A DNA stretch of 64,000 nucleotides from Imbricaverruca yamaguchii (lineage: Eukaryota > Arthropoda > Thecostraca > Neoverrucidae), in NCBI GenBank assembly GCA_034440575.1, contig JAOTOL010001660.1:4950501-5014500 (forward strand), in the 5' to 3' direction. How positions within the stretch are numbered: position 1 is the first letter of the stretch; each line of letters starts with the position of its first letter. The notes beneath the pieces were generated by a model. The model was given only the letters and a program-made list of their open reading frames with translations. It was not told the origin of the DNA and searched no databases. A program made the position numbers and the translations under genes. This document shows positions 3,990-61,395 of the stretch, in pieces.

Positions 3990-4860
3990 ACATGACAGAT
4001 CAAGCCTCAAGGTCAAAGGTTAGTTCAGTTTTCACAGTCCTCGCGGTTCGTGGCTTTGGCTTCAATTTGCATTATGTGGGTGTCATTCGACGTGGCTTTC
4101 CGTATGGTATCAGAATGTTAAGATATCGAAATAATTTCAGAGGTGTTAAAGGTCCGGCCCGAGTAAAATGATTGAGTGTAATACAAACAGGAGGGTTAAA
4201 GGTATTTTTCTTCGCAGCCATTGTGATAACAGGTACTCGTATGCTATATGAGAAGGGGCACCGCCAAGAAATCCGTCATAACCTGATCGGACGGTGCTCT
4301 CATCGTTGGTTTTTAATTTGCATTGCCACATTGCTGTTCCGGACACATACCATATAGAGCGTATTTTTAATTGACCGCTTCCCTCTTAATGGTTCAACTG
4401 ATGTTGTCAAATTTGCAAGAGAAGCCAAACACGAATGCGCACAATTTTATAACTAGCCGGGGTCCATAGCCGCCGGAGAGCAATACTGTAATCAGGGGTA
4501 GATCCAGGAATTGTCATGGGAGAACTTCTCTGGAGGGGCGTCATTTCTTTGGAGCGGCGCCACTGCAAAGACACCTGGAGGGGCCCCTCTGGATGCATAA
4601 TTCCAGGGGGCTGGTTGCACTTGGACCTTCCTGAAAAACTCCGCCTTTTTATTTCATAGGGGCGCCTCCGGCTGAAAAACTCAAACGGGTACACTGTAAC
4701 CTTTCCAGAGGGACGCCTTTTCCTGGCCTGGGGGACGCCACCTTCCACGTGGAGGTACATGCCATCAGTGCCACACCATATATCCACCCTGGTTGTCATG
4801 ATAGCTAAATATGTGCCCGTAAAAACAGCAAAGCATGGGAACGATAGTTGTATGTCCAGC
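3990..4860 (+). mobile_element. Family A module, right arm of palindrome 1
   Basis: Inverted counterpart of 1995-2920, with the same landmarks in reverse order. No coding potential seen. Confidence 0.65.
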
Positions 4861-5178
4861 AAGTAAACAATGCTAGAAACACCTAAAGCACAGAAACTTC
4901 CCTGACAGAAGCATTGTAGGACAAGTCTTCTGCATGTTCTGCAACAAAGACATGTAATCCTGATCCCGGAGCCTCGACCGTTCTTGCTCCAATTTTTTGT
5001 ACATTGAACTGTATGTCTTTTTCACTCTCATTGATGTTTGTGATAGCTTCCTTGTGAGTAACCACACTGCGTGAATAAGCAAGTGATTAAACAAGTGTAC
5101 CTAAACGAAGTTTGCGTGACGAATCGGGATCTGTCGCATGCTTCAGCTTTTCACCTTCGCCAGCTACGTCGCCGACAG

Positions 5179-5199
5179 CACGTGACCCCTGTGACGTCA
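5179..5199 (+). promoter_or_regulatory. E-box (CACGTG) plus CRE-like (TGACGTCA) upstream of lectin copy 2
   Basis: Mirror of the motif pair at 1656-1676, about 120-140 bp before the ATG at 5319. CREB/ATF and bHLH sites are the known readers of such motifs; use here is inference. Confidence 0.4.
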
Positions 5200-5318
5200 C
5201 CGTCCCGACTCTTTACGAGCCGCCGTATCCATGGTGTGCGCGGTACAACACTGCGTAGCGCGGCGGCAGGTGCGGCGGGGCGCCCGGCCACACCGAGCCG
5301 AGCGGCCGCCAGCGGACG

Positions 5319-5948
5319 ATGCGGCGGCGCACTTGCGAGACGATCCTGTGGCTGCTGGCGGTCGCGGCCGCCGGCGTCGTGCCGGCCAGCAGCCGGCTGT
5401 TGGACAACCTCGCCGGCCGCAACCACTCCAAGGCGCTGCTGGAGACGACGACGACCGTCAGCGCCGTGCGGTGCGCCCTCGTGTGCGCACACGTCGCCGC
5501 TTGCGTCGACATCGCCTTCTCGGCCGCTGGCAGCTGCCAACTGCTCGGCTGCCAGCCATGCTGGACGAGCCACCGCGACAGCTGCTACCGCGTAGGCACC
5601 GAACCGCTCACCTGGACGCTGGCGGAGGCGAAATGTCGCGACCTGTGGCCAACCAGCCGGCTGACTTCGCTGCTCTCGGCGGACGAGGTCAGCTTCGTTG
5701 CGGCTCTCGTGGCGGTCAACGGAGTGACCCAGTACCATATCGGCATGTACCACCTGCCCACCATGGCCGACGGCGAGTTCCAGTGGATCGACGGCAGCGC
5801 CATGGCTTTCACGTACTGGTACCCGAACAAGCCCAACAAGGACATGAAAAAAAAGCTGGGCAGCTTCAGTATGTCGACGCTTGGTAACATGTGGCAAGAT
5901 ATATGGGTAGAATTCGCCTCGTCTTATGTCTGCAAATATTTCGACTAG
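5319..5948 (+). CDS. Secreted C-type-lectin-like protein, copy 2 (209 aa, single exon)
   Basis: Inverted duplicate of the gene at 906-1535, same length and architecture: signal peptide, PAN-like cysteine segment, then C-type lectin-like domain. Counting directly, the copies differ at 12 nucleotides, 8 changing residues (V12L, E29D, D32A, G81C, I112T, R138Q, H168Y, R191M) and 4 silent. G81C adds a cysteine at the linker to the lectin domain. H168Y lies just before the NKPN loop that replaces the Ca/sugar-binding triplet, so the changes include the surface expected to bind ligand in this fold. Both frames are intact, and the 8:4 ratio does not by itself show selection. The genes face away from the shared spacer (upstream ends inward), so they could share regulatory sequence between them. 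Confidence 0.8.
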
Positions 5949-6014
5949 ACCTACATATAAGCGCTGGCAAAGCTGACGGTTTCACGGACAAGGTTTGTAC
6001 CCGATGTGAGCCCA

Positions 6015-24356: not shown

Positions 24357-24510
24357 TCAGAAGGGCGACTCTATGCTGACGAACTTGGATATGTAGAGGA
24401 TGATGTCCATGATGGAGAAGTCGCAATGGTACTCGTCCTTGCAGGCGGTGTCTTTGTTGGTGACACCGAACAGCGCTGCCTTCTGCCGCGGGCCGGGGTA
24501 GCCGTCTGGC
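24357..24510 (-). CDS. Terminal exon, residues 169-219 of the same gene
   Basis: The acceptor TGTGTTACAG precedes G-CCA-GAC. The first base completes a split proline codon left in phase 2 by the exon ending at 35746, so the frame continues exactly. It encodes PDGYPGPRQK then AALFGVTNKD, with C192-x5-C198 and a C-terminal hydrophobic stretch (FSIMDIILYISKFVSI), stop TGA at 24357-24359. Codons are G/C-ending (GTCACCAACAAAGACACC), unlike the surroundings. Immediately upstream the acceptor and the first exon bases are repeated about 44 times, so the true 3' splice site is the last of a ladder. No AATAAA was identified close downstream. Assigning both exons to one gene rests on phase, orientation and matching cysteine-pair layout; an RNA-seq junction would settle it. 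Confidence 0.65.
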
Positions 24511-27235
24511 CTGTAACACAGAGTGGTCCGGTCAGACACCGCGGTAAACAGAGGGCGGGGGTAGCCGTCTGGCCTGCAACACAGAGTGGTCCGGTCAGAC
24601 ACCGCGGTAAACAGAGGCCGGGGTAGCCGTCTGGCCTGTAACACAGAGTGGTCCGGTCAGACACCGCGGTAAACAGAGGGCGGGGGTAGCCGTCCGGCCT
24701 GTAACACAGAGTGGTCCGGTCAGACACCGCGGTAAACAGAGGCCGGGGCAGCCGTCTGGTCTGTAACACGGAGTGGTCCGGTCAGACACCGCGGTAAACA
24801 GAGGCCGGGGCAGCCGTCTGGCCTGTAACACGGAGTGGTCCGGTCAGACACCGCGGTAAACAGAGGGCGGGGGTAGCCGTCTGGCCTGTAACACAGAGTG
24901 GTCCGGTCAGACACCGCGGTAAACAGAGGGCCGGGGTAGCCGTCTGACCTGTAACACAGAGTGGTCCGGTCAGACACCGTGGTAAACAGAGGGCGGGGGT
25001 AGCCGTCTGGCCTGTAACACAGAGTGGTCCGGTCAGACATATGGGTAAACAGAGGCCGGGGTAGCCGTCTGGCCTGTAACACAGAGTGGTCCGGTCAGAC
25101 ACCGGGGTAAACAGAGGCCGGGGTAGCCGTCCGACCTGTAACACAGAGTGGTCCGGTCAGACACCGGGGTAAACAGAGGGCGGGGGTAGCCGTCTGGCCT
25201 GTAACACAGAGTGGTCCGGTCAGACACCGCGGTAAACAGAGGCCGGGGTAGCCGTCCGACCTGTAACACAGAGTGGTCCGGTCAGACACCGGGGTAAACA
25301 GAGGGCGGGGGTAGCCGTCTGGCCTGTAACACAGAGTGGTCCGGTCAGACATCTGGGTAAATAGAGGCCGGGGTAGCCGTCCGACCTGTAACACGGAGTG
25401 GTCCGGTCAGACACCGGGGTAAACAGAGGGCGGGGGTAGCCGTCTGGCCTGTAACACAGAGTGGTCCGGTCAGACATCTGGGTAAATAGAGGCCGGGGTA
25501 GCCGTCCGACCTGTAACACGGAGTGGTCCGGTCAGACACCGGGATAAACAGAGGGCGGGGGTAGCCGTCTGGCCTGTAACACAGAGTGGTCCGGTCAGAC
25601 ATCTGGGTAAACAGAGGGCGGGGGTAGCCGTCTGGCCTGTAACACAGAGTGGTCCGGTCAGACATATGGGTAAACAGAGGGCGGGGGTAGCCGTCTGGCC
25701 TGTAACACAGAGTGGTCCGGTCAGACACCGGGGTAAACAGAGGCCGGGGTAGCCGTCCGACCTGTAACACGGAGTGGTCCGGTCAGACACCGTGGTAAAC
25801 AGAGGGCGGGGGTAGCCGTCTGGTCTGTAACACGGAGTGGTCCGGTCAGACATATGGGTAAACAGAGGGCGGGGGTAGCCGTCTGGTCTGTAACACGGAG
25901 TGGTCCGGTCAGACACCGGGGTAAATAGAGGGCCGGGGTAGCCGTCTGGCCTGTAACACAGAGTGGTCCGGTCAGACATCTGGGTAAACAGAGGCCGGGG
26001 TAGCCGTCCGACCTGTAACACGGAGTGGTCCGGTCAGACATATGGGTAAACAGAGTGCCGGGGTAGCCGTCTGGCCTGTAACACGGAGTGGTCCGGTCAG
26101 ACACCGCGGTAAACAGAGGCCGGGGTAGCCGTCTGGCCTGTAACACGGAGTGGTCCGGTCAGACACCGGGGTAAACAGAGGCCGGGGTAGCCGTCCGACC
26201 TGTAACACGGAGTGGTCCGGTCAGACACCGTGGTAAACAGAGGGCGGGGGTAGCCGTCTGGTCCTGTAACAACGGAGTGGTCCGGTCAGACATATGGGTA
26301 AACAGAGGGCCGGGGTAGCCGTCTGGCCTGTAACACAGAGTGGTCCGGTCAGACACCGCGGTAAACAGAGGGCCGGGGTAGCCGTCTGGCCTGTAACACG
26401 GAGTGGTCCGGTCAGACACCGCGGTAAACAGAGGGCGGGGGTAGCCGTCTGGTCTGTAACACGGAGTGGTCCGGTCAGACACCGCGGTAAACAGAGGCGG
26501 GGAGCTGCTAAGGGGGGGGGGGTAACAGAGGGCGGGGGTAGCCGTCTGGTCTGTAACACGGAGTGGTCCGGTCAGACATATGGGTAAACACAGGGCGGGG
26601 GTAGCCGTCTGGCCTGTAACACGGAGTGGTCCGGTCAGACATCTGGGTAAACAGAGTGCCGGGGTAGCCGTCCGACCTGTAACACGGAGTGGTCCGGTCA
26701 GACACCGGGGTAAATAGAGGGCCGGGGGTAGCCGTCTGGCCTGTAACACAGAGTGGTCCGGTCAGACATATGGGTAAACAGGAGACATATGGGTACAGAG
26801 TGGGGGTAGCCGTCCGACCTGTAACACGGAGTGGTCCGGTCAGACATCTGGGTAAACAGAGTGCCGGGGTAGCCGTCCGACCTGTAACACAGAGTGGTCC
26901 GGTCAGACACCGCGGTAAACAGAGGCCGGGGTAGCCGTCTGGTCTGTAACACAGAGTGGTCCGGTCAGACATCTGGGTAAACAGAGGGCGGGGGTAGCCG
27001 TCTGGTCTGTAACACAGAGTGGTCCGGTCAGACACCGCGGTAAACAAAGGCCGGGGTAGCCGTCTGGCCTGTAACACGGAGTGGTCCGGTCAGACACCGG
27101 GGTAAACAGAGTGCCGGGGTAGTCATCCGACCTGTAACACGGAGTGGTCCGGTCAGACATCTGGGTAAACAAAGGGCCGGGGTAGCTGTCCGACCTGTAA
27201 CACGGGGTGGTCCGGTCAGACACCGGGGTAAGCAG
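24480..27235 (-). repeat. 62/63-bp minisatellite made of splice acceptor plus exon start, ~44 copies
   Basis: On the minus strand each unit reads CTGTGTTACAG, then GCCAGACGGCTACCCC (the first bases of the terminal exon), then GGCCTCTGTTTACC...GTCTGACCGGACCACT. The 5-prime neighbour of the real exon is itself a unit. Units vary at one hexamer (CCGCGG, CCGGGG, ATCTGG, ATATGG, CCGTGG) and by one G, giving 62 or 63 bp. 26500-26525 has an irregular G-run break. 63-bp units keep the exon frame open, hence the long frames. Confidence 0.92.
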
Positions 27236-27239
27236 GAGG

Positions 27240-27815
27240 TTCCTCGTATCCTATATGATGTTTTACAGCTAATCCTTTGGAATGATGCAGCGTGATGATG
27301 AGATTCCACTACGCATTGTGCGTGCCGAGAACGGCCTTGTATGTTCAGCACATCACATTAAGCATATGCCTGAATGCAATCATTAGATGGAGTGCGAAAA
27401 ATCAGGTGAAAGAAGATCAAGTGAGTGAGTGAATGAGAAGCAAAGTCTGCAAAACCGTTCAAAATGTCAAGTAATGTTCGGTCGTGCTCGTCATCCACCC
27501 AGCAGGCCGGCGTCTTATCAGCAATCGAAACGTAAAATTCCACCAGCGTCGATCATTCGCTGAAGCAATGCGACCTTTCGTTGATCATTAACGCATCCTC
27601 CAAGACGCATCGGTTGATAGCACGCCTACATACATTCCCATGCATTTCCAGCAAGCCAAGCGCCAGCGATCTGACAGACATTATTGACATGAACCGTAAA
27701 CCGACATAAACCGTCGCACCATGGGTGCAAAAGCAATACGTCGCCAGCCGTGTTGCATTTCAGCTCGCTTCGAATCCACTAGCCGGCCAGTGGCTGGGAG
27801 GGGGGGGGGGATAAC
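27240..27815. other. No gene recognised
   Basis: Unique sequence between arrays, in the inferred intron. No motif noted. Confidence 0.45.
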
Positions 27816-28195
27816 AACAGTCTGGGGATGTCTTCCCATCCAAGAGGACCGAGAGTCTGGGGCTCTCCTCCCATCCAAGGGGTCCAGCAGTCTGGGGCTG
27901 TCCTCTCATCCAAGGGGTCCAGTGGTCTGGGGCTGTCCTCTCATCCAAGGGGTCCAGTGGTCTGGGGCTGTCCTCTCATTCCAAGAGGACCGGCAGTCTG
28001 GGGCTGTCTTCCCATCCAAGGGGTCCAGCAGTCTGGGGCTGTCCTCCCATCCAAGGGGTCCAGCAGTCTGGGGCTGTCCTCTCATCCAAGGGGTCCAGTG
28101 GTCTGGGGCTGTCCTCTCATCCAAGGGGCCCAGCAGTCTGGGGCTGTCCTCTCATTCCAAGAGGACCGGCAGTCTGGGGCTGTCCTCCCATCCGT
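27815..28195. repeat. 35-bp minisatellite
   Basis: Unit GGGGCTGTCCTCTCATCCAA + GGGGTCCAGCAGTCT, about 11 copies, two with a CCAAGAGGACC variant. A G-run precedes it at 27799. Confidence 0.92.
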
Positions 28196-28199
28196 TCCG

Positions 28200-28890
28200 T
28201 CTGCCCGCCATGAGGAACAGACCCAAGGCAAGACGTTCGTACCGGCCACGAGCCTCGTAGGCGCGGTCAAAACCAGTCCAAGTCTGATTAGATCAGAACA
28301 CAACATGCCGAGTAAAACGGTGAGTGGTCCGTTAGCTAAGTTGCTGTCCAAGGGTCAAAGGGTATACCCTGGCTCAAAAGGTCACACCGGGCGTCCTGAG
28401 AGACGCTGAGATTGATCTAGAACGGGACCACCACGCCTTGAGATGGAAAACCCACCCAGAAAGTGGCATCAAGCACAACCAGGAATACCTCCAGCAGAAG
28501 CATCAAGCAGAGCAACCAGCGTATCGGATCGACTCGTCGCAGAATATTCAACGGGAAGTGTGCCAACCACAATAGTGGGCGAACAATAAAAAACCACCCA
28601 TCAACTGCACCGGCCGCTGGAACACCACCAACAGCAAGAACAACAGCAACTGGAATGCCAGCAGCATGAGGGCCATCACCAGCACCAGACTCAGCACCAG
28701 CTTCAGCCCGGCGCACGACAAGCGGCTGAACACCATGCAACGACACAAGAACACTTTTGTCTGCACCAAAAACACTTCATTTGTTGGAAAGCGGGTACAC
28801 CGAGTAAGGCACGGCATCCCAGGAGAATTACTGGATGTTCGAGACTGACTGAAGGACTGAGAACCGCCCAGTGTAGCGAAGTTAACTTCG
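28200..28890. other. No gene recognised
   Basis: Purine/AC-rich stretches with short CAGCA-containing repeats (28480-28700). Open frames without recognisable domains. Confidence 0.4.
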
Positions 28891-28892
28891 GG

Positions 28893-28893
28893 C

Positions 28894-28984
<91 letters not shown>

Positions 28985-29045
28985 TCTCGCTCTCTCGCTC
29001 TCTCTCTCTTTCTATCTCCCTCCCCCCTCTCCCGCTCTCTCCCTC
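28893..29045. repeat. (CT)n microsatellite
   Basis: About 90 bp of pure TC followed by an imperfect CT-rich tail to about 29045. The Glu/Arg-rich ORFs are its translation. Confidence 0.95.
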
Positions 29046-29139
29046 TCGGAATGCATTTGGCTCCGGTATGTCCAATCTGTTTGAGTCCTGTCACGAATGC
29101 CCGGAACTGAAATCGTCCCCGACGGCAGCACTGGCGCTC

Positions 29140-29640
29140 CGACAAAGTCCACCGCCAGGTGTGTTGTGCACAAGTCAGGTACGACAGAGTCCACCGCGAG
29201 GTGTGTTGTGCACAAGTCAGGTCCGACAGAGTCCACCGCAAGGTGTGCTGTGCACAAGTCAGGTCCGACACACGGCGCTCCGACAGAGTCCACCGCACGG
29301 TGTGTTGTGCACAAGTCAGGTCCGACACACGGCGCTCCGACAGAGTCCACCGCACGGTGTGTTGTGCACAAGTCAGGTCCGACACACGGCGCTCCGACAG
29401 AGTCCACCGCACGGTGTGTTGTGCACAAGTCAGGTCCGACAGTGTCCACCGCACGGTGTGTTGTGCACAAGTCAGGTCCGACAGTGTCCACCGCACGGTG
29501 TGTTGTGCACAAGTCAGGTCCGACACACGGCGCTCCGACAGAGTCCACCGCAAGGTGTGTTGTGCACAAGTCAGGTCCGACACACGGCGCTCCGACAGAG
29601 TCCACCGCAAGGTGTGTTGTGCACAAGTCAGGTCCGACTC
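29140..29640. repeat. 40/57-bp minisatellite
   Basis: Core TCCACCGCACGGTGTGTTGT + GCACAAGTCAGGTCCGACA, with or without a 17-bp CACGGCGCTCCGACAGA-type insert, so units are about 40 or 57 bp. About 11 copies. Confidence 0.9.
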
Positions 29641-29749
29641 ACGGCGTGCCGAGGGCTACGCGGCAGATGTTACGTCACTGCGCGCCATGACGCAGTCGGG
29701 TGTCGTCATTGTGACGCCCGCGTCACCACTGTACCGCGCGGCAGGAGTC

Positions 29750-29935
29750 TGCGGTGGCTCGGTTGGTAGGGCGTCTGACTCTTTATCGCACTATCGTGGG
29801 TTCGAATCTCATGACCGACGGCATTTACCGACTCCACAAGCGACTAATCGGCGTGAGAGGTTGGCGACGCTATATCACCTAGCGATTGAATGCGTCGTAA
29901 AAGAACCCGACGCTCTTCTTCTATGCGGTACATGT
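29750..29935 (+). mobile_element. tRNA-derived SINE (family S2), copy 1
   Basis: The tRNA-like head starts GGTGGCTCGGTTGGTAGGGC (box A) and continues CTGACTCTTTATC (Lys-like anticodon region, stem poorly paired) and GGGTTCGAATC (box B). It is followed by a core AATCGGCGTGAGAGGTTGGC then GACGCTA and GCGTCGTAAAAGAACCC. The same core sits in an otherwise different SINE at 52455-52607. The head does not fold as a good tRNA, so it is not called a tRNA gene. Confidence 0.65.
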
Positions 29936-29944
29936 GGGACAGGG

Positions 29945-30345
29945 GCTGGTCGGAGCGCGACTGCCGGACTCCCCTCGCGGCGTGGTTCAGTAGGCGATGC
30001 CAGCCCAGTGACGACAGACAGGGTGTTGGTCGGAGCGCGACTGCCGGACCCCCCACGCGGTATGGTTCAGTAGGCGATGCCAGCCCAGTGACGACAGACA
30101 GGGGCTGGTCGGAGCGCGACTGCCGGACCCCCTCGCGGCGTGGTTCAGTAGGTGATGCCAGCCCAGTGACGACAGACAGGGGCTGGTCGGAGCGCGACTG
30201 CCGGACCCCCCTCGCGGCGTGGTTCAGTAGGTGATGCCAGCCCAGTGACGACAGACAGGGGCTGGTCGGAGCGCGACTGCCGGACCGCCCTCGCGGCGTG
30301 GTTCAGTAGGTGATGCCAGCCCAGTGACGACAGCCAGGGTGTTGG
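29945..30345. repeat. 79-bp minisatellite
   Basis: About five copies of a unit containing CAGTGACGACAGACAGGGGC, TGGTCGGAGCGCGACTGCCG and GTGGTTCAGTAGGTGATGCC. It begins at the 3' end of the S2 SINE. Confidence 0.9.
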
Positions 30346-30731
30346 TCGGACCAGTCCCCCTTTCCACGAGCGGACTGGCATCCCTTGCGCGCGCGCGGTG
30401 GGCCCCAGACGCGACTGGACGGTCCAGGCGGTAAGATGTAGCCAAGCGAGTGACGCAGTGATCAGACGTGCGGATGTTCGGAAGGTTTGGGTCACTGTTG
30501 AACTACTGACGCTGTTGCACAAGTTGCTGCCGGTTGGTTAACTAATCAGCCCCGTCAATACAAGGACATTAACGGCTGGTGGTTTTAAGGAAGTGCTGTC
30601 GATCTGAGTACTTGCTGGCTTAGATAATCGATTGAAATTGAGAATGAGTTGTCGCACAAGCGGGGCAAACCCACAGACTATCACTGTCGGGCGAATTGAA
30701 CTTGCCTACCCGTCTCCAGGAATGCTGTCAC

Positions 30732-31065
30732 ACCAGTCAGTCACATTATCAGATGGACACTCGGTACATTGAGAACCAGTTACCTCTGTTGTCTGACGAG
30801 CCGTACCGGCACATTGACCCACATCACGGCTGCGTCGCGCTCTTCCAACTTCGCCCCGTATCTTTTGAAGTCACATTGACGGATATTGTACATGTATCAA
30901 GGCATGTTGCTATACCAGCTTTATCAGTGGCACTGGATACATTGGGAACCAGTTGCCCCTGACGGGGCATCCCGGCACATGTTCACAAAGCGCGGCTGTG
31001 TCGCACTCTTGCAGCTTTGTCCCATGTCTTTCTAAGTCACATTAACGGATATTGTGCCTGCACAA
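30732..31065. repeat. Direct duplication of ~170 bp
   Basis: 30735-30893 and 30912-31060 align: CATTGAGAACCAGTT / CATTGGGAACCAGTT, GGCTGCGTCGC / GGCTGTGTCGC, AAGTCACATTGACGGATATT / AAGTCACATTAACGGATATT. Diverged, no coding signal. Confidence 0.65.
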
Positions 31066-32620
31066 AAGCTGATGGTTGTGGATGTGCTGGAGTAAACTTA
31101 ATTATTTAATATCAAAGACAAGGCACTTCCAAACGTCGCCTTTCGCAAAGTTCAGGAGCAAAATAATTCATGAACTGTTCTCATCGGCGCTCACAAGAAA
31201 GTTGTCTTCATCATTTCTCACAACCCATTACTATCGCCACTTCGCATCTCATGATCAAAACCGGATAGGGCAACTGACTAAACAGCTATTTTAACACCAC
31301 CGCCAGAAATATAACGGGAACACAACTTTCCCATGGATGAGGTGTCCGACGCGTTATACGATGCCAGTGAAATTGGCAGCAGCATGAACGATCTCTAAAA
31401 TACATGGTTTGAGAAGAAGTAGATGACAATGGACGACATTCATATTGCAAGCTTACGGTCTAGAAAGCCTGGTGACATACTGTGTGAAGCACTGTATAAC
31501 TTGGAATTATGACATAATATAACATTACCAGTGTGATGGAATTTGCCGCATTAACAATTCGTACTCCGCATATCGATGACGGAAGATCAAGGGCTGCTGA
31601 TAATCCTAAGCATCATAACATCATAATATTATAAACATTGTTGACATTGTGGACAGGAATATACAGTGTGACATGGGAGATTGATCAAAACACGCCAAGA
31701 ATGAAAGAGATGAAACTAAGTTGCATTCTGCAATCTACATTGAAGTTACCTGGTACGCACAGGGTATATGTTTATCCATAACTATAATGAGTCAAATTGA
31801 TGTTTTCTGTTGATACCTGATGCCAAGATCCCGTACGACGGGTACGACGGGTGACTACGCTCTTTAGAACCAACGAATGGGTGCATTTTCTGGCATTTCT
31901 GCCACCGCGGAACAATGGCAAAATGAAGTGCATCAGCGTCCTGGTTCCAATTTTCAGAGGGAAACTTCTGTTTTATCTATACGCTCACAAAGACCACCCG
32001 GAAATATTAAGGTGATCCTTCGGAAGGTGGTCTTAATGGCCGGTGGTCTTAATCACCGGTTTGAAAGAATATTGCTTTCAGAATGTTTCGCGACACCTCC
32101 TAAGTTGCATCATGACTACGTCTGAATACCACAACATTCGCCTAAACACGTTTATTTTGGAGCTGTAGGGTGGCAATCTGCGCAGTAATGTGCATAGAAA
32201 TGTCAGGGCCAATAGACCGTGAAATCCTGTCAAGCCGACACAGACGACCGTTTTTATCAGAGCTGCAAGTCAGCTCAACTTGGCACCGTACGTCCAACTG
32301 GCTGTAAATAACCGGGATAGAGTTTGATAAGTAATGTCAATGTCTGTCACACTTGTAGCGACGACACAGATTATGGCTTCTCAGAAAGCAAGGATTAATA
32401 CTCTGAACGAGACAATTCTGACCGTCTCACTGGCAATAGATCACGACGCACGGCTTCACTGCGACAAACCATACTGACAAAGCTTCATCGTTTCACTGGT
32501 ACAGATAATCCTGGCAGACACCACTTCACTGCAACTGGAGAGGAATTTTAACAATATTTTTTGTTCGTAGGGGATCCTCTTTTATCTCTTCTTGTTTCGA
32601 ATGGCAACTGCCTGGTTCAA
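31066..32620. other. No gene recognised
   Basis: Mostly AT-rich unique sequence. A short direct repeat GGTGGTCTTAATSRCCGG occurs twice near 32025-32060. No exon found. Confidence 0.45.
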
Positions 32621-32624
32621 ACGG

Positions 32625-33240
32625 GTGCTTGTCTAGTCCAAAAGGGCGCCTGTCCAGTCCAGAGGGGCGCCTGTCTAGTCCCAGAGTGGCGTCTGCCTAG
32701 TCCAGAGGGGTGCCTGTCTATTCCAGAAGGGCGCTGACATACTGTAGGGACACCTGTCTGGTGTAGAGGAGCGTCTGTCTAGTCCAGAGAGGCATCTGCC
32801 TAGTTCAGATGGATCCTGTCTGGTGTAGGGGAGCTTCTGTCTAGTCCAGAGAGGCATCTGCCTAGTTCAGAGGGGATCCTGTCTGGAGCTTCTGTCTAGT
32901 CCAGAGAGGCGTCTGCCTAGTTCAGAGGGGATCCTGTCTGGTGTAGGGGAGCGTCTGTCTAGTCCAGAGAGGCGTCTGCCTAGTTCAGATGGATCCTGGC
33001 TGGTGTAGGGGAGCTTCTGTCTAGTCCAGAGGCATCTGCCTAGTTCAGAGGGGACCCTGTCTGGTGTAGGGGAGCTTCTGTCTAGTCCAGAAAGGCGTCT
33101 ACCTAGTTCAGAGGGGATCCTGTCTAGTGTAGGGGAACGTCTGTCTAGTCCAGAAAGGCGGTTGCCAAGTTCAGAAAAGCGCTTGCATAGTTCAGAGGGG
33201 CGCCTGTCTAGTCCACAGAGGCGGCTGCATAGTCCAAAGT
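32625..33240. repeat. ~60-bp minisatellite, degenerate ends
   Basis: Unit with CTGTCTAGTCCAGAGAGGCG, TCTGCCTAGTTCAGAGGGGA and TCCTGTCTGGTGTAGGGGAG. About ten units, the outer ones degraded to CTAGTCCAGA-only blocks. Confidence 0.85.
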
Positions 33241-34264
33241 CCAATAGAAACGAGCGCCCGCGAAGTCTAGAAAAACACCTCTCGACATGCCCACTGCAGA
33301 TGACACCGACCTAATCCAGAGGGGTGCGCCTCCCATAGACAGGAAATGAGCTGTCCCAAAATTCCATGGGGTGCATGCCCCTTGCTCTAGGTTAAGAGGG
33401 ATGGCTGCTCCTCATACTATCGTCATCCCCGCATCAGCCGCCATGGCTTCGTACCAGCAGTATTGACATTGGTGTTGGTAAGTGGCATGCACATCAGCGA
33501 GCCTAACTTTGTGTGAATTGACGTTGCTTTTTAAATAATGTTTTATGTTCTATAACCCGAATAATGTTGGGCAACTAACACATGTTTTAGGCGATGCATA
33601 CAAGTCACGTGGAGCATTATCGGTCGTTTTGTACCAGCCACAAGAAGTATGTGTTTGTGAACACATCTCAGAAATGAGGCATGTTTTAATGACCAAACAT
33701 GATTTTCAATTCAGGTAATCATCTCGACAATGGTTGATAATAGTGGGTCATAGAAGGTACTAGGTGATAATAAGTGGGCAATGCGCGTATAGACAATCGT
33801 TTTCAAAGGAAATACTTTTAAATGTTTCAGAAAACGAAATGATTACCAGGCCCAGATTTTGAATCAAACAGCTCAATAATATGGAAAAACGTCTTCCCCA
33901 GCGATAAATAGGCTCTGCCTCGCAGAGCGGGTGTATTCAGAAAGCACATGCTCCATCTCCCCCGGTGCGCCCCTGCACGTACCCAGTATACTCCCGAGAG
34001 TTACATGCGCCAATTTCGCTATGTCCAGATTAGTGACAAAGATGCACGGGGGGGGGGGCACCGAGACCTGGTGGCGTTGCGACGACAGCATGGCTCGCTG
34101 GTGGGTTCCATGCACACCATGTCGTGGTTGTGGACCGAACTTCGCATGGCACAGAGCACATCTCTCGCTGATCGCTGGGAAGGCCCTATTTTGTATTTGG
34201 AGGCCAAGAATTTCAAGAATTTTTGTATGTAAAAGTGGCCGGCTTCAAGAAACGTTGGAGGATA
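33240..34264. other. No gene recognised
   Basis: Unique sequence, AT-rich 33480-33880. A poly-G run lies at about 34048. No gene called. Confidence 0.45.
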
Positions 34265-34268
34265 TTAA

Positions 34269-35111
34269 ACCCGCGTCGTCTTTTCGGTCCGATCCTCACA
34301 CCTCGTCTCGGGGGAGGGGGCGGGTAGTAACCCCCTCTAAAATTTAAACTAAACATCGCACGAAAATAAATGAGGTGTCATCGGAAAGCGCTCGACATGT
34401 AGGGTCCAAATCCACCCTCAAAACAATTTTCCCTAAAAATGACGTCACTAAAAATGGCTAGATTTTCACTTCTCACAACTTACGCTACGTTTTTGGCTCG
34501 GGGGAGTTCATTTTGGGGGATATTTGAAAAACAAAAATTATTTGAAATCAGAAAATGACAGCGAAATCGACCAGGGCCATACAATATCCCCCCCCCCCCA
34601 AGGAGAATGTTAATTTTTTGAAATTTCAAAATTTTGAGTCTTCAAGTTTTCTTTAATTATCATTTTCTAATGGGTAGAGCTGACCGAGAAACGTTGTTGG
34701 AAATCAACTTGCCCCAATAAAAGTGCGTACTTTAGCCAGAATCTTCGATTTGAACTGCAATGGGTAAATGTGCAAAATTTTATGTGGTAAAAAACGGAAC
34801 AAAAATGAAAAATTCCTCTCGTACGTTTTATTGCATCCAAAAATATAAGCAAACGCTGAAAGTTTCATTAGAATATCTTTATCCGTTAAAGCGTGACGAC
34901 TGGTTGAACGTTTTTGGAGGTCACCTCACTTGACCTTGATTGAACTCGTTGACCCTAGGCGACCTGACTTCAAAATTGCGACACAACGTGCCAAATCGAT
35001 GTGGGATAAGGTATGCCAAATTTTGGCGCGCTACCGTGCGCCGTTCGGTCACCATCCGCGAAAAACCTGAGAGGGGGGGAGCGGTTGAAGACCCCCATGA
35101 GATGGGACGGA
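34269..35111. mobile_element. Family B TIR element, copy 2
   Basis: 843 bp, closely parallel to 9625-10463: ACCCGCGTCGTCTTTTCGG at the left end and GACCCCCATGAGATGGGACG at the right end. It is flanked by TTAA (34265-34268) and a mutated TTAG (35112-35115). Same order of landmarks (AGGTGTCATCGG, TTTTTGGCTCGGGGGAGTTC, AAGCGTGACGACTGGTTGAA). No transposase. Confidence 0.75.
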
Positions 35112-35361
35112 TTAGCGCCGGTACCCCATTAATAGCCATAGCAACTTCAAGTAACGTCTCCAAAGTACATCTATTTCGAAAAAGGACACAGATAGCCACA
35201 AACCAATCAGAGAAAGCAGCCGCCTACCACAACAACGTGAAGTATTTCGTGGGGATCAGCGAGTGTAACTCGCGCTTTTCCCAGGAGAACCAGTACTACG
35301 GCCGGCGAATTCACGGCCCAATTCCCACAGAGCCAATATCGCGACCACCACCACCATCTAC

Positions 35362-35547
35362 GGCGGGCTTGGGGTGGGCATGTGGGTGTCTGCGAATGCC
35401 ATGACATTACCGTTCGGTTCGACATTAGCGCTGCTCGGGACATTTCCCAATCCCGCGGCCCACCGGCGAAACAGTGTGGGCGGCGCCATAGCCGTGAATG
35501 TGCATAAAGTGCGTCGTGAACCACCCAATAAACAAACAAACAAACAT
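35362..35547 (+). mobile_element. tRNA-derived SINE (family S1), copy 2
   Basis: The body is clear (CGGTTCGACATTAGCGCTGC, TCCCAATCCCGCGGCCCACC, GGCGAAACAGTGTGGGCGGC, GTGAATGTGCATAAAGTGCG) and ends CAATAAACAAACAAACAAAC. The tRNA head before 35420 is badly degraded. Confidence 0.7.
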
Positions 35548-35644
35548 TACAGTTCGCCTCGCGATGCATTCAGCAGTCGCGTCTGACACAGTGCAGTTTC
35601 TGCCGCGAATCATGTGTGTGCTCAGCAGTGCCGCACGCGCGGTA

Positions 35645-35770
35645 CTCACGGGTACAGTATCTGGATGGGTACAGTACTCACGGGTACAATATCTGGATGG
35701 GTACAGCACTCACGGGTACAGCATCTGGATGGGTACAGTACTCACGGGTACAGTATCTGGATGGGCACGG
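35645..35770 (-). repeat. 32-bp minisatellite made of exon end plus splice donor, ~4 copies
   Basis: On the minus strand each unit reads ATCCAGATACTGTACCC (last bases of the exon) then GTGAGTACTGTACCC. The first copy is the real exon end at 35746. The others lie in the intron, with small changes (GATGCTG, GATATTG, GTGAGTGCTG). Confidence 0.88.
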
Positions 35771-36252
35771 CCAGGTAGCCGAACTTGTACGGACTGCGCC
35801 ACACCTCGCAGGCGGTCTTCTGCGTGCACGAGTCGCCGGTGACTCCGCGGATCTCGTCCAGCGCGCCGTACACCAGGTCGGTGAGGTAGTTGGTGGTGTA
35901 GGCGTCGTCGTCGAGGTCGTTGCGCCCGGTGCGGCCCTGCACGTAGCCGAGCAGCGGGATGACGAACAGCACGACCACCGTGAGCGCCGCCAGGAAGGCC
36001 AGCGACACCACCGACGCCGTGTCGAGCGTGCCCAGCGAGATCTCGGCCAGACTCGGCACGCTGAACGCGAACAGCGGGATCGTGAACGCGACGGTGGTGT
36101 TGAACTTGCCGGCGCTGTAGTTGGGGCCGAACAGGAAGCGCGGCGAGCCGGCCGTCTCGAGCGCCGAGTCGGCCGAGGCGGCGGCGCCGAGCGAGGCGAT
36201 CGAGGCGAGCGCCGCGGCGCCCGCCAGCCACACCGCCACGTGGCAGCACATC
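35746..36252 (-). CDS. Exon encoding residues 1-168 of a secreted/membrane cysteine-paired protein (DM4/DM12-like)
   Basis: The exon starts at an acceptor (CTGTTACAG before GATG) and ends at a strong donor (TACCC before GTGAGTACTG). The ATG is at 36251; a slightly longer read-through start at 36266 is also open. Residues 1-27 look like a signal peptide (VAVWLAGAAALASIAS). Then come sequons N44-Y-S and N51-T-T, the segment FTIPLFAFSVP (57-67), a hydrophobic helix at about 76-103 (possible membrane anchor), an acidic linker and C142-x5-C148. It ends in phase 2, which matches the exon at 24510-24357; the join gives 219 residues with a second C-x5-C pair. The pattern recalls arthropod DM4/DM12-type secreted proteins (inference). 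Codons are strongly G/C-ending. Function unknown. Confidence 0.7.
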
Positions 36253-36271: not shown

Positions 36272-36690
36272 GGCGTCACCAGTGGTGCGGCAGGGTGACG
36301 GCGTGCGTCACCAGTGGTGCGGCAGGGTGACGGCGTGCGTCACCAGTGGTGCAGCAGGGTGACGGGGTGCGTCACCAGTGGTGCGGCAGGGTGACGGCGT
36401 GCGTCACCAGTGGTGCGGCAGGGTGACGGGGTGCGTCACCAGTGGTGCGGCAGGGTTACGGGTGCGTCACCAGTGGTGCGGCAGGGTGACGGGGTGCGTC
36501 ACCAGTGGTGCGAGCAGGGTGACGGGGTGCGTCACCAGTGGTGCGACAGGGTGACGGGTGCGTCACCAGTGGGTACGGCAGTGTTGGGCGCGGGCCGGTG
36601 GGGGGAGGGTGCGTCACCAGTGGTGCGGCAGGGTGACGAGGGTGCGTCACCAGTGGTGCAGCAGGGTGACGGGGTGCGTCACCTGTGGTG
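36272..36690. repeat. ~32-bp minisatellite upstream of the first coding exon
   Basis: Unit GTGCGGCAGGGTGACGGGGT + GCGTCACCAGTG, about 13 copies with 1-3 bp indels. It begins about 20 bp outside the acceptor at 36253, so it lies in the upstream intron or 5' flank of the minus-strand gene. Confidence 0.92.
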
Positions 36691-39471: not shown

Positions 39472-40450
39472 GCTACCGTGAGCGGCAGGTCTGTCCCGAC
39501 ACCGCTACCGTGAGCGGCAGGCCTGTCCCGACACCGCTACCGTGAGCGGCAGGCCTGTCCCGACACCGCTACCGTGAGCGGCAGACCTGTCCCGACACGG
39601 CTACCGTGAGCGGCAGACCTGTCCCGACACCACTACCGTGAGCGGCAGCCTGTCCCGCTACCGTGAGCGGCAGGCCTGTCCCGACACCGCTACCGTGAGC
39701 GGCAGACCTGTCCCGACACCGCTACCGTGAGCGGCAGGCCTGTCCCGACACCGCTACCGTGAGCGGCAGGCCTGTCCCGACACCGCTACCGTGAGCGGCA
39801 GACCTGTCCCGACACCACTAGCCCGACAGCTACCGTGAGCGGCAGACCTGTCCCGACACCGCTACCGTGAGCGGCAGGCCTGTCCCGACACCGCTACCGT
39901 GAGCGGCAGGCCTGTCCCGACACCGCTACCGTGAGCGGCAGGCCTGTCCCGACACCGCTACCGTGAGCGGCAGACCTGTCCCGACACCGCTACCGTGAGC
40001 GGCAGGCCTGTCCCGACACCGCTACCGTGAGCGGCAGGCCTGTCCCGACACCGCTACCGTGAGCGGCAGGCCTGTCCCGACACCACTACCGTGAGCGGCA
40101 GGCCTGTCCCGACACCGCTACCGTGAGCAGCAGGCCTGTCCCGACACCGCTACCGTGAGCGGCAGGCCTGTCCCGACATCGCTACCGTCAGCGGCAAGCC
40201 TGTCCTGACACGGCTACCGTGAGCGGCAGACCTGTCCCGACACGGCTACCGTGAGCGACAGGCCTGTCCCGACACCACTACCGTGAGCGGCAGGCTTGTC
40301 CGGACACCGCTACCGTGAGCGGCAGGCCTGTCCGGACACCGCTACCGTGAGCGGTAGACCTGTCCCGACACGGCTACAGTGAGCGGCAGGCCTGTCCCGA
40401 CACCGCTACCGTGAGCGGCAGGCCTGTCCCGACACCGCTACCGTGAGCCC
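39472..40450. repeat. 32-bp minisatellite with CCGTGAGC in each unit
   Basis: Unit GCTACCGTGAGCGGCAGGCC + TGTCCCGACACC, about 30 copies. The plus strand carries a donor-like ACCGTGAGCG in almost every unit. Variants: GACC for GGCC, CACTAC for CGCTAC. Confidence 0.93.
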
Positions 40451-44739: not shown

Positions 44740-45334
44740 GACCTGTACAGCTGCCCACAGCTGGGGCGGTGATGCGCAATGCTCTGATTCACGCGTGGTC
44801 ACGGCCGCCGGACGTTCTCAGTCACGGACGATCACGGGCGACTGGTAGCAGGCGCCGGGATCGGCCGACAGGTGCAAATGGCGGCCGATCCTGCTCTGCC
44901 CATCCTGCCCATCCTGCCCATCCTTCCTCTAAACTGCTATATGACCTATGCAGTCGATGCGCCCCTAAGCTACAATAGCTGCTCTGAACTGAGCTTGCGG
45001 ACGGATCCGGAAAGTCTCATTGCGGCCGGGGGGGGGAGGAGGGGGCGGTGCACTCATCGGAAGCGCGCCTTCCGCGATCAAAAAGATTGTTCTGCGGGGT
45101 GGGATCGGGGTGTTGTCGATCATGTTGAATGGATACTTTTTGTCTCCAAAAGTCTTCCATGTAAAAGACTGTTTTCGTCTGGCAGATTCGTTGAGCGGCG
45201 CGGGAGGAGGAGAGGTGCACTATCCCTTCCTTAAGTGACGCCTTTTTCCGGCCGGAAGGGCGTCACTCTTCCATGGGTGCGCTTGCCCCAATGCACCCCT
45301 CCCCCTGTATCTGGCCCTGACTGAGCTCTCGCCA
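44740..45334. other. No gene recognised; CCCATCCTG repeats and poly-G
   Basis: 44897-44925 has three CATCCTGCC repeats, and a G-run lies near 45028. 45000-45310 resembles the GCGCC-rich family A flanks (GAGGTGCACTATCCCTTCCT...TGACGCC) but I could not align it. Confidence 0.35.
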
Positions 45335-45775
45335 ATCCACACCTCGGCCACTGATCAAACCCACCACTGCCACACACTGACCAGAGGTTCTCAACTGAGC
45401 TCCAGCCAGTCCGCACATCGGCCACTGATCAAACCCACCACTGTCACACACTGACCAGAGGTTCTCAACTGAGCTCCAGCCAGTCCGCACATCGGCCACT
45501 GATCAAACCCACCACTGCCACACACTGACCAGAGGTTCTCAACTGAGCTCCAGCCAGTCCGCACATCGGCCACTGATCAAACCCACCACTGCCACACACT
45601 GACCAGAGGTTCTCAACTGAGTTTCAGCCAGTCCGCACATCGGCCACTGATCAAACCCACCACTGCCACACACTGACCAGAGGTTCTCAACTGAGTTCTA
45701 GCCAGTCCGCACATCGGCCACTGATCAAACCCACCACTGCCACACGCTGACCAGAGGTTCTCAACTGAGTTCCGG
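45335..45775. repeat. 74-bp minisatellite, ~6 copies
   Basis: Unit CACTGATCAAACCCACCACT..CACACACTGACCAGAGGTTC..TCAACTGAGCTCCAGCCAGT..CCGCACATCGGC at an exact 74-bp spacing (45350, 45424, 45498, 45572, 45646, 45720). Very homogeneous. Confidence 0.93.
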
Positions 45776-45999
45776 CCAGCGAAGAGGTGTTTAATGAGGT
45801 AGCATGGAACACATCAACCTTAAGTTCCAGAAGTAGTCTCACTAGTGCCGGCGAGACGCAAAAACAAACGGAGCAGGGCAGTGGACGGCTTTTTCCGGAG
45901 CACACAGCACGTCTGTCCGGTGGCAATGTCTGTAGCTGGTGCTTGGCACGAGTACCACGTTCTGACGCTGTGGCAGGATGATAGGGCGACGCGACACTC

Positions 46000-48827: not shown

Positions 48828-49885
48828 GACAGACAGACAGACAGACAGACTTTTATTGAGGTCATCCACAATTGACTTGTGGCTATTACGACATCGCGTC
48901 AAATAGATAAAACAACACAGCACAAAAGGTAAAAAAGTGGGTCAAAATCACAGAATATAAGTTAAACTATAAAAAAAAATATACATAAAAAATACCAGCA
49001 AGTCGAGCAGTCTCTCAGTCCGGCACGGGCGGCAGGTCAAGTAGATGCTCCCGTAGGTGGCGACCAAAGATCGACACGGGAAATCGCGTCAGCTCAGGTG
49101 GCAGTGAATTGTACATGTGTGGCGCTCTGGAACTAAAGCGTCTCTTCCCCATCTCGGTGCGGGACCGAGGGACATACAAGTTGTGGTCTTGACGGGTGGT
49201 CCGGTCACGAATCTCCGCCATGGTGGTAAGATCGTGAGCCAGTGACTCTGGCTCACCATGGAGACGCACCTTGTGTATGAGGCGAAGGGTGTGATAACTC
49301 GCCAGGTTCTCCGCGCTGAGCCAGCCCAGCCTCCTCAGCAGATCCGAAACGTGGTCAAACTTTTTGCGGCCGAAAATTACCCTAGCCGAGTAGTTCATAA
49401 TTTTTTGGATGCGAGATAGGTTCTTTTTGCCTCCGTTACCATACACAGAAATACAGTAGCGGATCTGCGAGAAGATCAGAGCATTTACCAGCGTGGAGAT
49501 GACGGCAGGTGGAAGGTGCGATGCGATGCGACAGACCACCCAGAACTCCGAAACAACGCCGAGTCAATTCTGAGACGTGCGAGTCCCAGCTGAGAGAGCG
49601 ATCGAAAATAATACAGAGATTTTTGCATTCCGAAATGGTGGGTAGATGATGATCGCGAAATTTCACTGTGACATCCGGTAAGGCACGCAGATTTGTTGGG
49701 CTGCCCAACATCATCAGCTGTGTTTTAGCTACGTTAATTTTCAGTCCATTTGCTCGAAACCAGATATCGAGGGAGGCCAGAACTGTTTCCATATGAGTGA
49801 CAACATTTTGAATTTGAGATTTCTTACCACTGACCAAAATTTTGGTGTCGTCAGCGTATTGAACAACATAGGATAGCAATCATTT
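48828..49885 (-). mobile_element. 5'-truncated LINE with reverse-transcriptase (YADD) and (GTCT)n tail
   Basis: Minus strand, 5' to 3': from 49879 the RT palm motif VVQYADDTKILV, then LDIWFRANGLKINVAKTQLM, HLPTISECKNL, SWDSHVSELTRRCFGVLGGL. A frameshift at about 49440-49540 leads into the thumb/C-terminal part (LVNALIFSQIRYCISVYGNG; RIQKIMNYSARVIFGRKKFD; NSLPPELTRFP; stop at 49015). The ~165-bp 3' UTR ends in (GTCT)n at 48828-48852. The YADD residues are intact, but the fingers, endonuclease and ORF1 are missing and the frame is broken, so it is dead. The 3' end is nearly identical to 16050-16441. It resembles CR1/Jockey-group non-LTR elements. Confidence 0.85.
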
Positions 49886-59905: not shown

Positions 59906-60419
59906 ATAGATCGACGGGCCCACTCCAGCTTGCGGAGCCATGCTGTTCGCGGTAGGCGGGCCTCCCTTCCAGTTGCGGCAGATCGGCCGTCAAACAGCCT
60001 GTCAAACCAACCTGAATCTTAAGACGTCCCTAGGCCGGTTGGCGTTTCTATCGAAAGAACCTACTTCATTCCCCCTGCTCGTCTTCCTTTGTTGGCACCA
60101 TTCACATAGCAGTTGCGAGACATAATCCGTGTTCACCACAGGAACTTCTTCAATTTTTCTTCTTCAGAGTCTCACCAGTCGGATGTCGGCCAGTCGGCGC
60201 ACCGAGTGCAAGGGTATTCTTGCAGTTGCCCACGGTCACAAATCACAGCAGGCTCTTCCAATTAGGCACAGTACATGTTTTGTGGTCGGTGAAGAACTTC
60301 CCGGGGGCCCCTGCGGTTTAATCATGCATTCATGACGGCTGTCACGAACTCGCAGGAATGCCTGTCCAGTAATGACATAATACACCGTTCGCGGCTCTCC
60401 ACAGTTCACCGCGCACAAG
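59906..60419. other. No gene recognised
   Basis: Unique sequence between the two large arrays. Confidence 0.45.
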
Positions 60420-61395
60420 GGCCTGCTGTCACACTGCTGATGTTCCCCACAGCCGCCGCAGAAGTCTTCCCTCAGGGCCTGCTCTCACACAGCTGGTGTT
60501 TCCCACAGCCGCCGCACAGGTGTACCATCAGGGCCTGCTCTCACACTGCTGGTGTTCCCCACAGCCGCCGCACAGGTGTACCCTCAGGGCCTGCTCTCAC
60601 ACAGCTGGTGTTCCCCACAGCCGCCGCAGAAGTCTTCCCTCAGGGCCTGCTCTCACACAGCTGGTGTTCCCCACAGCCGCCGCACAGGTGTACCCTCAGG
60701 GCCTGCTGTCACACAGCTGGTGTTTCCCACAGCCGCCGCACAGGTGTACCCTCAGGGCCTGCTCTCACACTGCTGGTGTTCCCCACAGCCGCCGCACAGG
60801 TGTACCCTCAGGGCCTGCTCTCACACAGCTGATGTTCCCCACAGCCGCCGCACAGGTTTACCCTCAGGGCCTGGTCTCACACAGCTGGTGTTCCCCACAG
60901 CCGCCGCACAGGTTTACCCTCAGGGCCTGGTCTCACACAGCTGGTGTTCCCCACAGCCGCCGCACAGGTTTACCCTCAGGGCCTGGTCTCACACAGCTGG
61001 TGTTCCCCACAGCCGCCGCACAGGTTTACCCTCAGGGCCTGGTCTCACACAGCTGGTGTTCCCCACAGCCGCCGCACAGGTTTACCCTCAGGGCCTGCTG
61101 TCACACAGCTGGTGTTCCCCACAGCCGCCGCACAGGTTTACCCTCAGGGCCTGGTCTCACACAGCTGGTGTTCCCCACAGCCGCCGCACAAGTGTACCCT
61201 CAGGGCCTGCTGTCACACAGCTGGTGTTCCCCACAGCCGCCGCACAGGTGTACCCTCAGGGCCTGCTGTCACACTGCTGATGTTCCCCACAGCCGCCGCA
61301 CAGGTGTACCCTCAGGGCCTGCTGTCACACAGCTGGTGTTCCCCACAGCTGCCGCACAGGTTTACCCTCAGGGCCTGCTGTCACACTGCTGTACA
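60420..61395. repeat. 56-bp minisatellite
   Basis: Unit CCCCACAGCCGCCGCACAGG + TGTACCCTCAGGGCCTGCTG + TCACACAGCTGGTGTT, about 17 copies. The central block 60850-61150 is enriched in a TTTACCC/GGTC variant, showing local homogenisation. Confidence 0.93.

Follow-up and report, generated by a model that had tools for sequence, protein, structure and literature searches.

A mirage-like array of 43 tandem 3' splice sites, with tandem donors at the other end of the same intron, in a barnacle gene

Minisatellite-like duplications of intron-exon boundaries have been described in the globin genes of amphioxus, where the acceptor region of BflGb6 is present in 6 and 3 copies in two haplotypes, and such structures have been called "mirages", a term taken from the case of the amphioxus Adh3 gene (PMC3087553, in the part of the text available). 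RT-PCR suggests that regular splicing is undisturbed by them (same part of PMC3087553), and further mirages are reported for troponin C and PGBD5 in the available part of PMC3902484. In man, the minisatellite of the 6-16/IFI6 gene (Turri, Cuin and Porter 1995, as described in the accessible text of PMC4526556) contains multiple splice donors, and segmental duplications contain variable tandem repeats, some of them at exon-intron boundaries (PMC2812944, accessible part). The accessible portions of PMC6692358 (miR-137 VNTR), PMC2206037 (amphioxus huntingtin) and PMC3039753 (DDX3Y minisatellite) describe no array of tandem splice sites.

The barnacle locus described here lies in a 64-kb stretch of DNA, which we analysed as a whole and call the window. 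By its anatomy the array is of the mirage kind. As far as the available parts of those papers go, it is like the amphioxus mirages (Adh3, BflGb6/BflGb9, troponin C, PGBD5) in that the repeats span an intron-exon boundary, at either end of the intron, and in that many units carry AG or GT signals, with the real exon at the edge of the array. In both barnacle arrays the units cross the boundary (42 intron and 21 exon bases at the acceptor, 20 exon and 12 intron bases at the donor), the splice dinucleotide is found in the units (AG in 43 of 43, GTGAG in 4 of 4), and the real junction stands at the exon-side edge, at 24511 and 35745. The differences are of scale and of evidence: the barnacle has 43 acceptor copies against the 6 and 3 of BflGb6, has arrays at both ends of one intron and shows more such arrays in a sample of exons, whereas splicing was checked by RT-PCR in amphioxus and the barnacle case is known from sequence only. 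The likeness to IFI6, within what the accessible text describes, is that minisatellite units are splice sites adjoining a real exon, and here too several tandem donors (four, 35745-35649) stand beside one exon; however, the repeated sites of IFI6 are donors, two downstream units of which are used in mRNA, while the barnacle has 43 acceptors as well as 4 donors. The repeats of human segmental duplications are likewise minisatellites that alter gene structure and may form introns, but they average 4 repeats of 30 bp, and no ladder of one acceptor is described in the accessible text (PMC2812944).

The initial annotation had stated that no such system was described, which does not hold for the kind of array, known from the amphioxus mirages and the IFI6 donor minisatellite as far as the available texts describe them. 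What is new is the scale and copy number, the presence at both ends of one intron, the barnacle host, and the number of such junctions sampled. Within the open-licence literature listed, a scope that most subscription journals fall outside, we found neither a 43-copy acceptor array nor a barnacle case. The locus bears on intron gain and on the reshaping of gene structure by unstable minisatellites.

The arrays and their host gene

The coordinates of the features are collected in Table 1. We counted 43 acceptors between 27195 and 24511 on the minus strand, 42 of them TTACAG and one TTGCAG (at 24574); from the base composition of the stretch, 0.3 occurrences of TTACAG would be expected. The tandem amplification claimed by the initial annotation was thus confirmed, with 43 copies instead of about 44, and its unit length of 62/63 bp applies to 37 of the 42 spacings (63 bp in 23, 62 bp in 14), the others being 64 bp (three), 78 bp (one) and 97 bp (one). 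A typical unit consists of 42 intron bases followed by 21 exon bases, and the exon diverges from the repeat past its base 21. The claim that each unit carries the first 16 or so exon bases is correct to a good approximation, the match being exact in 19 of the 42 decoys, at least 13 bases in 40 of them, and 14.9 of 16 on average. The motif TGTGTTACAG, said to be in every unit, is not invariant: among the 42 aligned units it begins with T in 22 and with C in 20, unit 26264 has an extra base, and unit 24574 has TTGCAG. A CTGAC is found upstream of the AG in all 43 units, the distance between its A and the G of AG being 21 nt (22 nt in unit 26264, owing to the extra base), and judging from the motif it is a candidate branch point. 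The last unit does provide the acceptor of exon 24510-24357, and both the anatomy of the array and the boundaries of its units support the proposal that the array arose by tandem duplication of an intron-exon junction. When the unit and exon were searched against the barnacle's own genome (767 Mb, 1430 contigs), only the array locus was found among the at least 20 matches; the number is a lower bound, because frequent words are skipped in this search and scoring is confined to its top candidates.

Table 1. Features of the locus (a slash in a sequence marks a splice junction)
Feature	Positions	Strand	Remarks
62/63-bp minisatellite, 43 tandem 3' splice sites	24491..27235	minus	Authentic site last, G of AG at 24511
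Order within the array unit	within 24491..27235	minus	CTGAC first, then a short stretch biased to pyrimidines, TTACAG and the start of the exon
Last coding exon	24357..24510	minus	Codes PDGYPGPRQKAALFGVTNKD...SIESPF; stop TGA 24359-24357; four homologs continue across junction
Intron between both arrays	24511..35745	minus	Measured between the outermost splice sites
32-bp tandem array of the same intron's 5' splice site	35642..35765	minus	4x (C/T)TGTACCC/GTGAGT
Upstream coding exon	35746..36251	minus	ATG at 36251 to ...QILYP
32-bp minisatellite about 20 bp upstream of upstream exon's acceptor	36273..36690	minus	Acceptor GTTACAG, exon start 36252

The donor array, at the other end of the same intron, is absent from the description in the initial annotation. 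Its four donors read GTGAG, with the first G at 35745, 35713, 35681 and 35649, and translation beyond the first of them runs immediately into a TGA. The third array, further upstream, leaves out the acceptor of the upstream exon. In that exon the ATG directly follows GTTACAG/G, and the exon ends in ...CTGTACCC/GTGAGT.

Joining 36251-35746 to 24510-24357 gives a protein of 219 aa, for which eight homologs (P0001-P0008) were found among 7996 candidates scored. P0001 is Pollicipes pollicipes LOC119102872 and P0003 is Amphibalanus amphitrite LOC122383667; aligned identity is 83% to the Pollicipes and 72% to the Amphibalanus entries, and the host is by homology a barnacle distinct from both. Homologs P0001-P0004 read across the junction as LYPPDG(Y/H)PG(P/E)RQKA, with no residues derived from the repeat. 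The gene thus appears intact, and the position of its intron is probably shared. P0005-P0008 end at LYP, the point where the GTGAGT donor of this gene reads TGA. One copy of the upstream exon was found in the barnacle's own genome. The 219-aa gene matched no Pfam family (best E 0.31), and neither AATAAA nor ATTAAA was found within 1.5 kb past the stop, exon 24510-24357 being defined to the stop codon only.

Copied splice sites in a sample of exons

Minisatellites are abundant in this genome, to judge from the contig that holds the locus. Sampled in twenty pieces of 10 kb (200 kb in all), it contained on average 16.5% minisatellite (range 0.4 to 65.9%) and, for every 10 kb, 3.45 arrays that were 100 bp or longer, and in the window we found 25 minisatellite arrays of at least 100 bp, with 23.7% of the sequence in repeats of period 10 or more. 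Copied splice sites were then counted in 52 exons taken at fixed steps down lists of matches (32 of 72 to the myosin head and 20 of 100 to tyrosine phosphatase), a sample that covers two gene families and includes several exons from one gene. Around the first 40 exons, 40-bp windows with a further copy made up 12-15% of the positions lying 60-400 bp beyond the acceptor edge and 18-23% of those beyond the donor edge, against 4% at the acceptor edge itself, 15% at the donor edge and 0% at 30 bp or more into the exon.

With uncurated automatic junction calls, 1 of 48 acceptors and 9 of 44 donors were copied (Fisher p 0.006). Hand curation dropped seven acceptors and eight donors and moved one acceptor. 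After curation, 1 of 41 acceptors was copied, where 7.3 were expected from matched intronic AG (none of 20,000 draws was as low), while the 8 copied among 36 donors agree with the 7.9 expected from matched intronic GT (66% of draws were as low). Gapped matching gave 1-2 of 41 acceptors against 7.4-8.0 expected and 8 of 36 donors against 7.6-9.1 expected, the difference between acceptors and donors having a Fisher p of 0.010 to 0.039. There was no enrichment of arrays at splice sites in the 52 sampled exons, and since copied donors match the intronic expectation, donor arrays need nothing beyond a high rate of minisatellite formation. Acceptor copies are several-fold rarer in the sample than the intronic rate, and are apparently selected against; part of this depletion may reflect constraint on the branch-point region, given that arrays are already thin within 60 bp of the acceptor. 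Perhaps the first copy to be transcribed tends to win. At a donor this would do no harm, since the real site comes first, but at an acceptor it would be damaging, since there the farthest decoy leads. That donors are tolerated and acceptors depleted in the sample amounts to a testable statement about the rule of choice.

The clearest copied junctions are the donors of exons L043 (10 further copies) and L073 (4) and the acceptor of L048 (3), and L050 has a copied donor (4) together with a diverged acceptor copy upstream. We had considered the ladder as a unique oddity and abandoned this, other sampled exons having junction-spanning arrays too. Because acceptor copies are rare in the sample, a 43-copy acceptor ladder in an apparently intact gene would be a rare and surprising type in its genome. 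In L043 (646-1113, reverse complement) a myosin-head donor CAGCAG/GTGAGG recurs about 12 times in 39-bp units that reach the end of the stretch. Myosin exons at C1376:1866589, C1138:564602 and C1082:452662 sit in open frames of 1051-1080 aa, far exceeding the exon, and at the first of these (L041) a 42-bp array extends to the acceptor region of the exon.

Choice among the acceptors

The strength of each unit was scored with a position matrix trained on the 41 curated acceptors of this genome, with leave-one-out. The description of the units as near-identical 3' splice sites was borne out: 42 of the 43 score at or above the median real acceptor (7.46), the exception being unit 26264 (4.1), and 35 exceed the 99th percentile of 796 intronic AGs. 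Counting the authentic site, 23 of 43 score at least as high as the authentic one, and site strength alone cannot single out the last acceptor. As nearly all decoys match the real site in strength, the choice must come from context. Work on how the spliceosome chooses among equal sites usually relies on engineered minigenes that carry two sites or a few more, and this locus is a natural test of the choice, with four near-equal donors facing 43 near-equal acceptors and a readable outcome. From donor 35745, the conserved C-terminus is kept by only two acceptors, 24511 (219 aa) and 24574 (in frame, adding 21 residues to give 240 aa), the other 41 leading to a frameshift or an early stop, and just one of the four donors retains the protein. 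Among the 172 possible pairs of donor and acceptor, we infer that two preserve it.

Among 42 units, 2 of the 25 columns from the branch-point motif to the AG are variable, against 19 of 38 elsewhere (Fisher p 0.0008, or 0.0016 with linked columns merged). A permutation of the longest invariant run gave p 0.066 and 0.19 at two thresholds for the acceptor array, and among 14 other arrays of the window the run-length test gave p<0.05 for one (45320-45779) at one threshold. The low variation could come from constraint or from a history of few founder variants, and as a hint of decoy use or selection it is at most suggestive.

Predicted RNA folding differs between the AGs. Over five context sizes the mean pairing of decoy AGs is 0.79-0.82 against 0.10-0.47 for the authentic AG, and in each size at most one of the 42 decoys is as open as the authentic site. 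The decoys being near-copies, this is in effect a comparison of two contexts and not of 42 independent sites. With sliding local folds, none of the 42 decoys reaches the openness of the authentic AG at spans of 70, 100 and 150 nt, and 10 of 42 match it at 300. The contrast is gone when measured over the whole TTACAG, at all four windows (10, 6, 10 and 20 of 42 decoys being as open). The candidate branch point shows no difference in openness (0.31 against 0.35), and real acceptors elsewhere are as open as intronic AGs (0.39 and 0.39). We also considered that each decoy AG might be locked into a small hairpin formed with the unit that follows, but folds of 40 nt did not bear this out, only 9 of the 42 decoys having a fully paired AG; the contrast was stronger in wider contexts. 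Local pairing that covers the decoy AGs is possibly a second, weaker candidate for what selects the last site.

We think it probable that this is a minisatellite of the mirage type, that the functional mRNA joins the outermost pair of sites, and that the decoys are mostly bypassed as intronic baggage. As the sequence reads, tandem duplication of a 63-bp segment, comprising 42 bp of intron end and 21 bp of exon start, went on until there were 43 copies, and a 32-bp segment of its own kind grew to four where the intron begins, both arrays presumably being products of the high minisatellite load that, in the exon sample, was shown to reach splice junctions as well. The functional mRNA would most likely join donor 35745 to acceptor 24511, because no other pair codes for the conserved protein, apart from the one with the next acceptor, which adds 21 residues. 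Exon definition favours the acceptor beside the exon body, and the body of this exon adjoins the last acceptor only, which would thereby be favoured. Local RNA pairing might also hide the decoy AGs more than the last one, and some mis-splicing probably arises and would be tolerated. Bypass of the decoys is supported by the four homologs that lack repeat-derived residues, by the small number of sites that keep the protein, and by the amphioxus papers, which in their available parts suggest that mirages leave splicing undisturbed (PMC3087553, PMC3902484). The array may not be silent, since the depletion of acceptor copies elsewhere suggests that upstream copies usually do harm.

If instead the 5'-most copy were taken at both ends, acceptor 27195 or another early decoy would be used, and the result would be a repeat-coded or truncated C-terminus, or a gene in the course of being lost. 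This would agree with donor copies at the intronic rate and depleted acceptor copies in the sample, and with decoys that equal the real acceptor in score; however, exon 24510-24357 is intact and the protein is well conserved with other barnacles, and decay would be expected in an exon long out of use if the array is not very young, so we consider this unlikely. We are just as doubtful of a reading in which tandem splice sites are normal in this genome (about one fifth of donors), the 5'-most copy tends to win at both ends of an intron, acceptor copies are purged for that reason, and this one ladder survives by folding, the decoy AGs being hidden and the last AG, beside different sequence, remaining open. 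The loss of the folding contrast over the whole TTACAG makes it somewhat less likely. The length-variable switch proposed by the initial annotation, in which several acceptors would be used under regulation and copy number would set isoform length, draws on the near-equal strength of the 43 acceptors, on the branch-point-like motif present in every unit, and on the low column variation from branch point to AG. Against its being useful, 41 of the 43 acceptors ruin the frame or stop early, leaving 24574 as the sole in-frame variant, and none of the four full-length homologs contains repeat-derived residues; a switch therefore seems improbable.

A 63-bp unit can be read through without a stop (PDGYPGPLFTAVSDRTTLCYR and variants), as would be so in a tandem-repeat exon of a longer protein, but mixed unit lengths repeatedly break the frame and 41 of 43 starts fail to reach the real C-terminus, so that no one frame stays open to the end of the gene, and we regard a coding array as very improbable. 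We attach similarly little weight to the array having been inflated or invented by assembly. Tandem arrays are often mis-assembled, and the available text of PMC3087553 describes the BflGb6 mirage as looking aberrant in the draft genome. On the other side, the units are non-identical with two odd spacings, the window contains no N, and the same kind of array is found on other contigs, although the copy number may still be off. Bypass of the decoys by the outermost pair is the reading that we retain.

Other features of the window

Two further arrays, 60418-61391 and 39472-40448, have units that hold splice-like motifs (TTCCCCACAG and ACCGTGAGC, respectively), and no exon was recognised on inspection of their edges. 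Twenty other open reading frames of the window were scanned with Pfam, and three gave matches at E<=0.01: Lectin_C, RVT_1 and DUF5080, the last of these below its cut-off. The stretches 873-2445 and 4410-5981 form an apparent long inverted duplication with three open reading frames per side on opposite strands, the first 60 or so residues being nearly identical between sides, and long AT/AC dinucleotide runs lie beside both. The C-type lectin domain is in 909-1793 on the minus strand, inside this apparent duplication. The RVT_1 match, at 49439-49879 on the minus strand (E 4e-7), is a reverse transcriptase fragment and probably a retrotransposon remnant.
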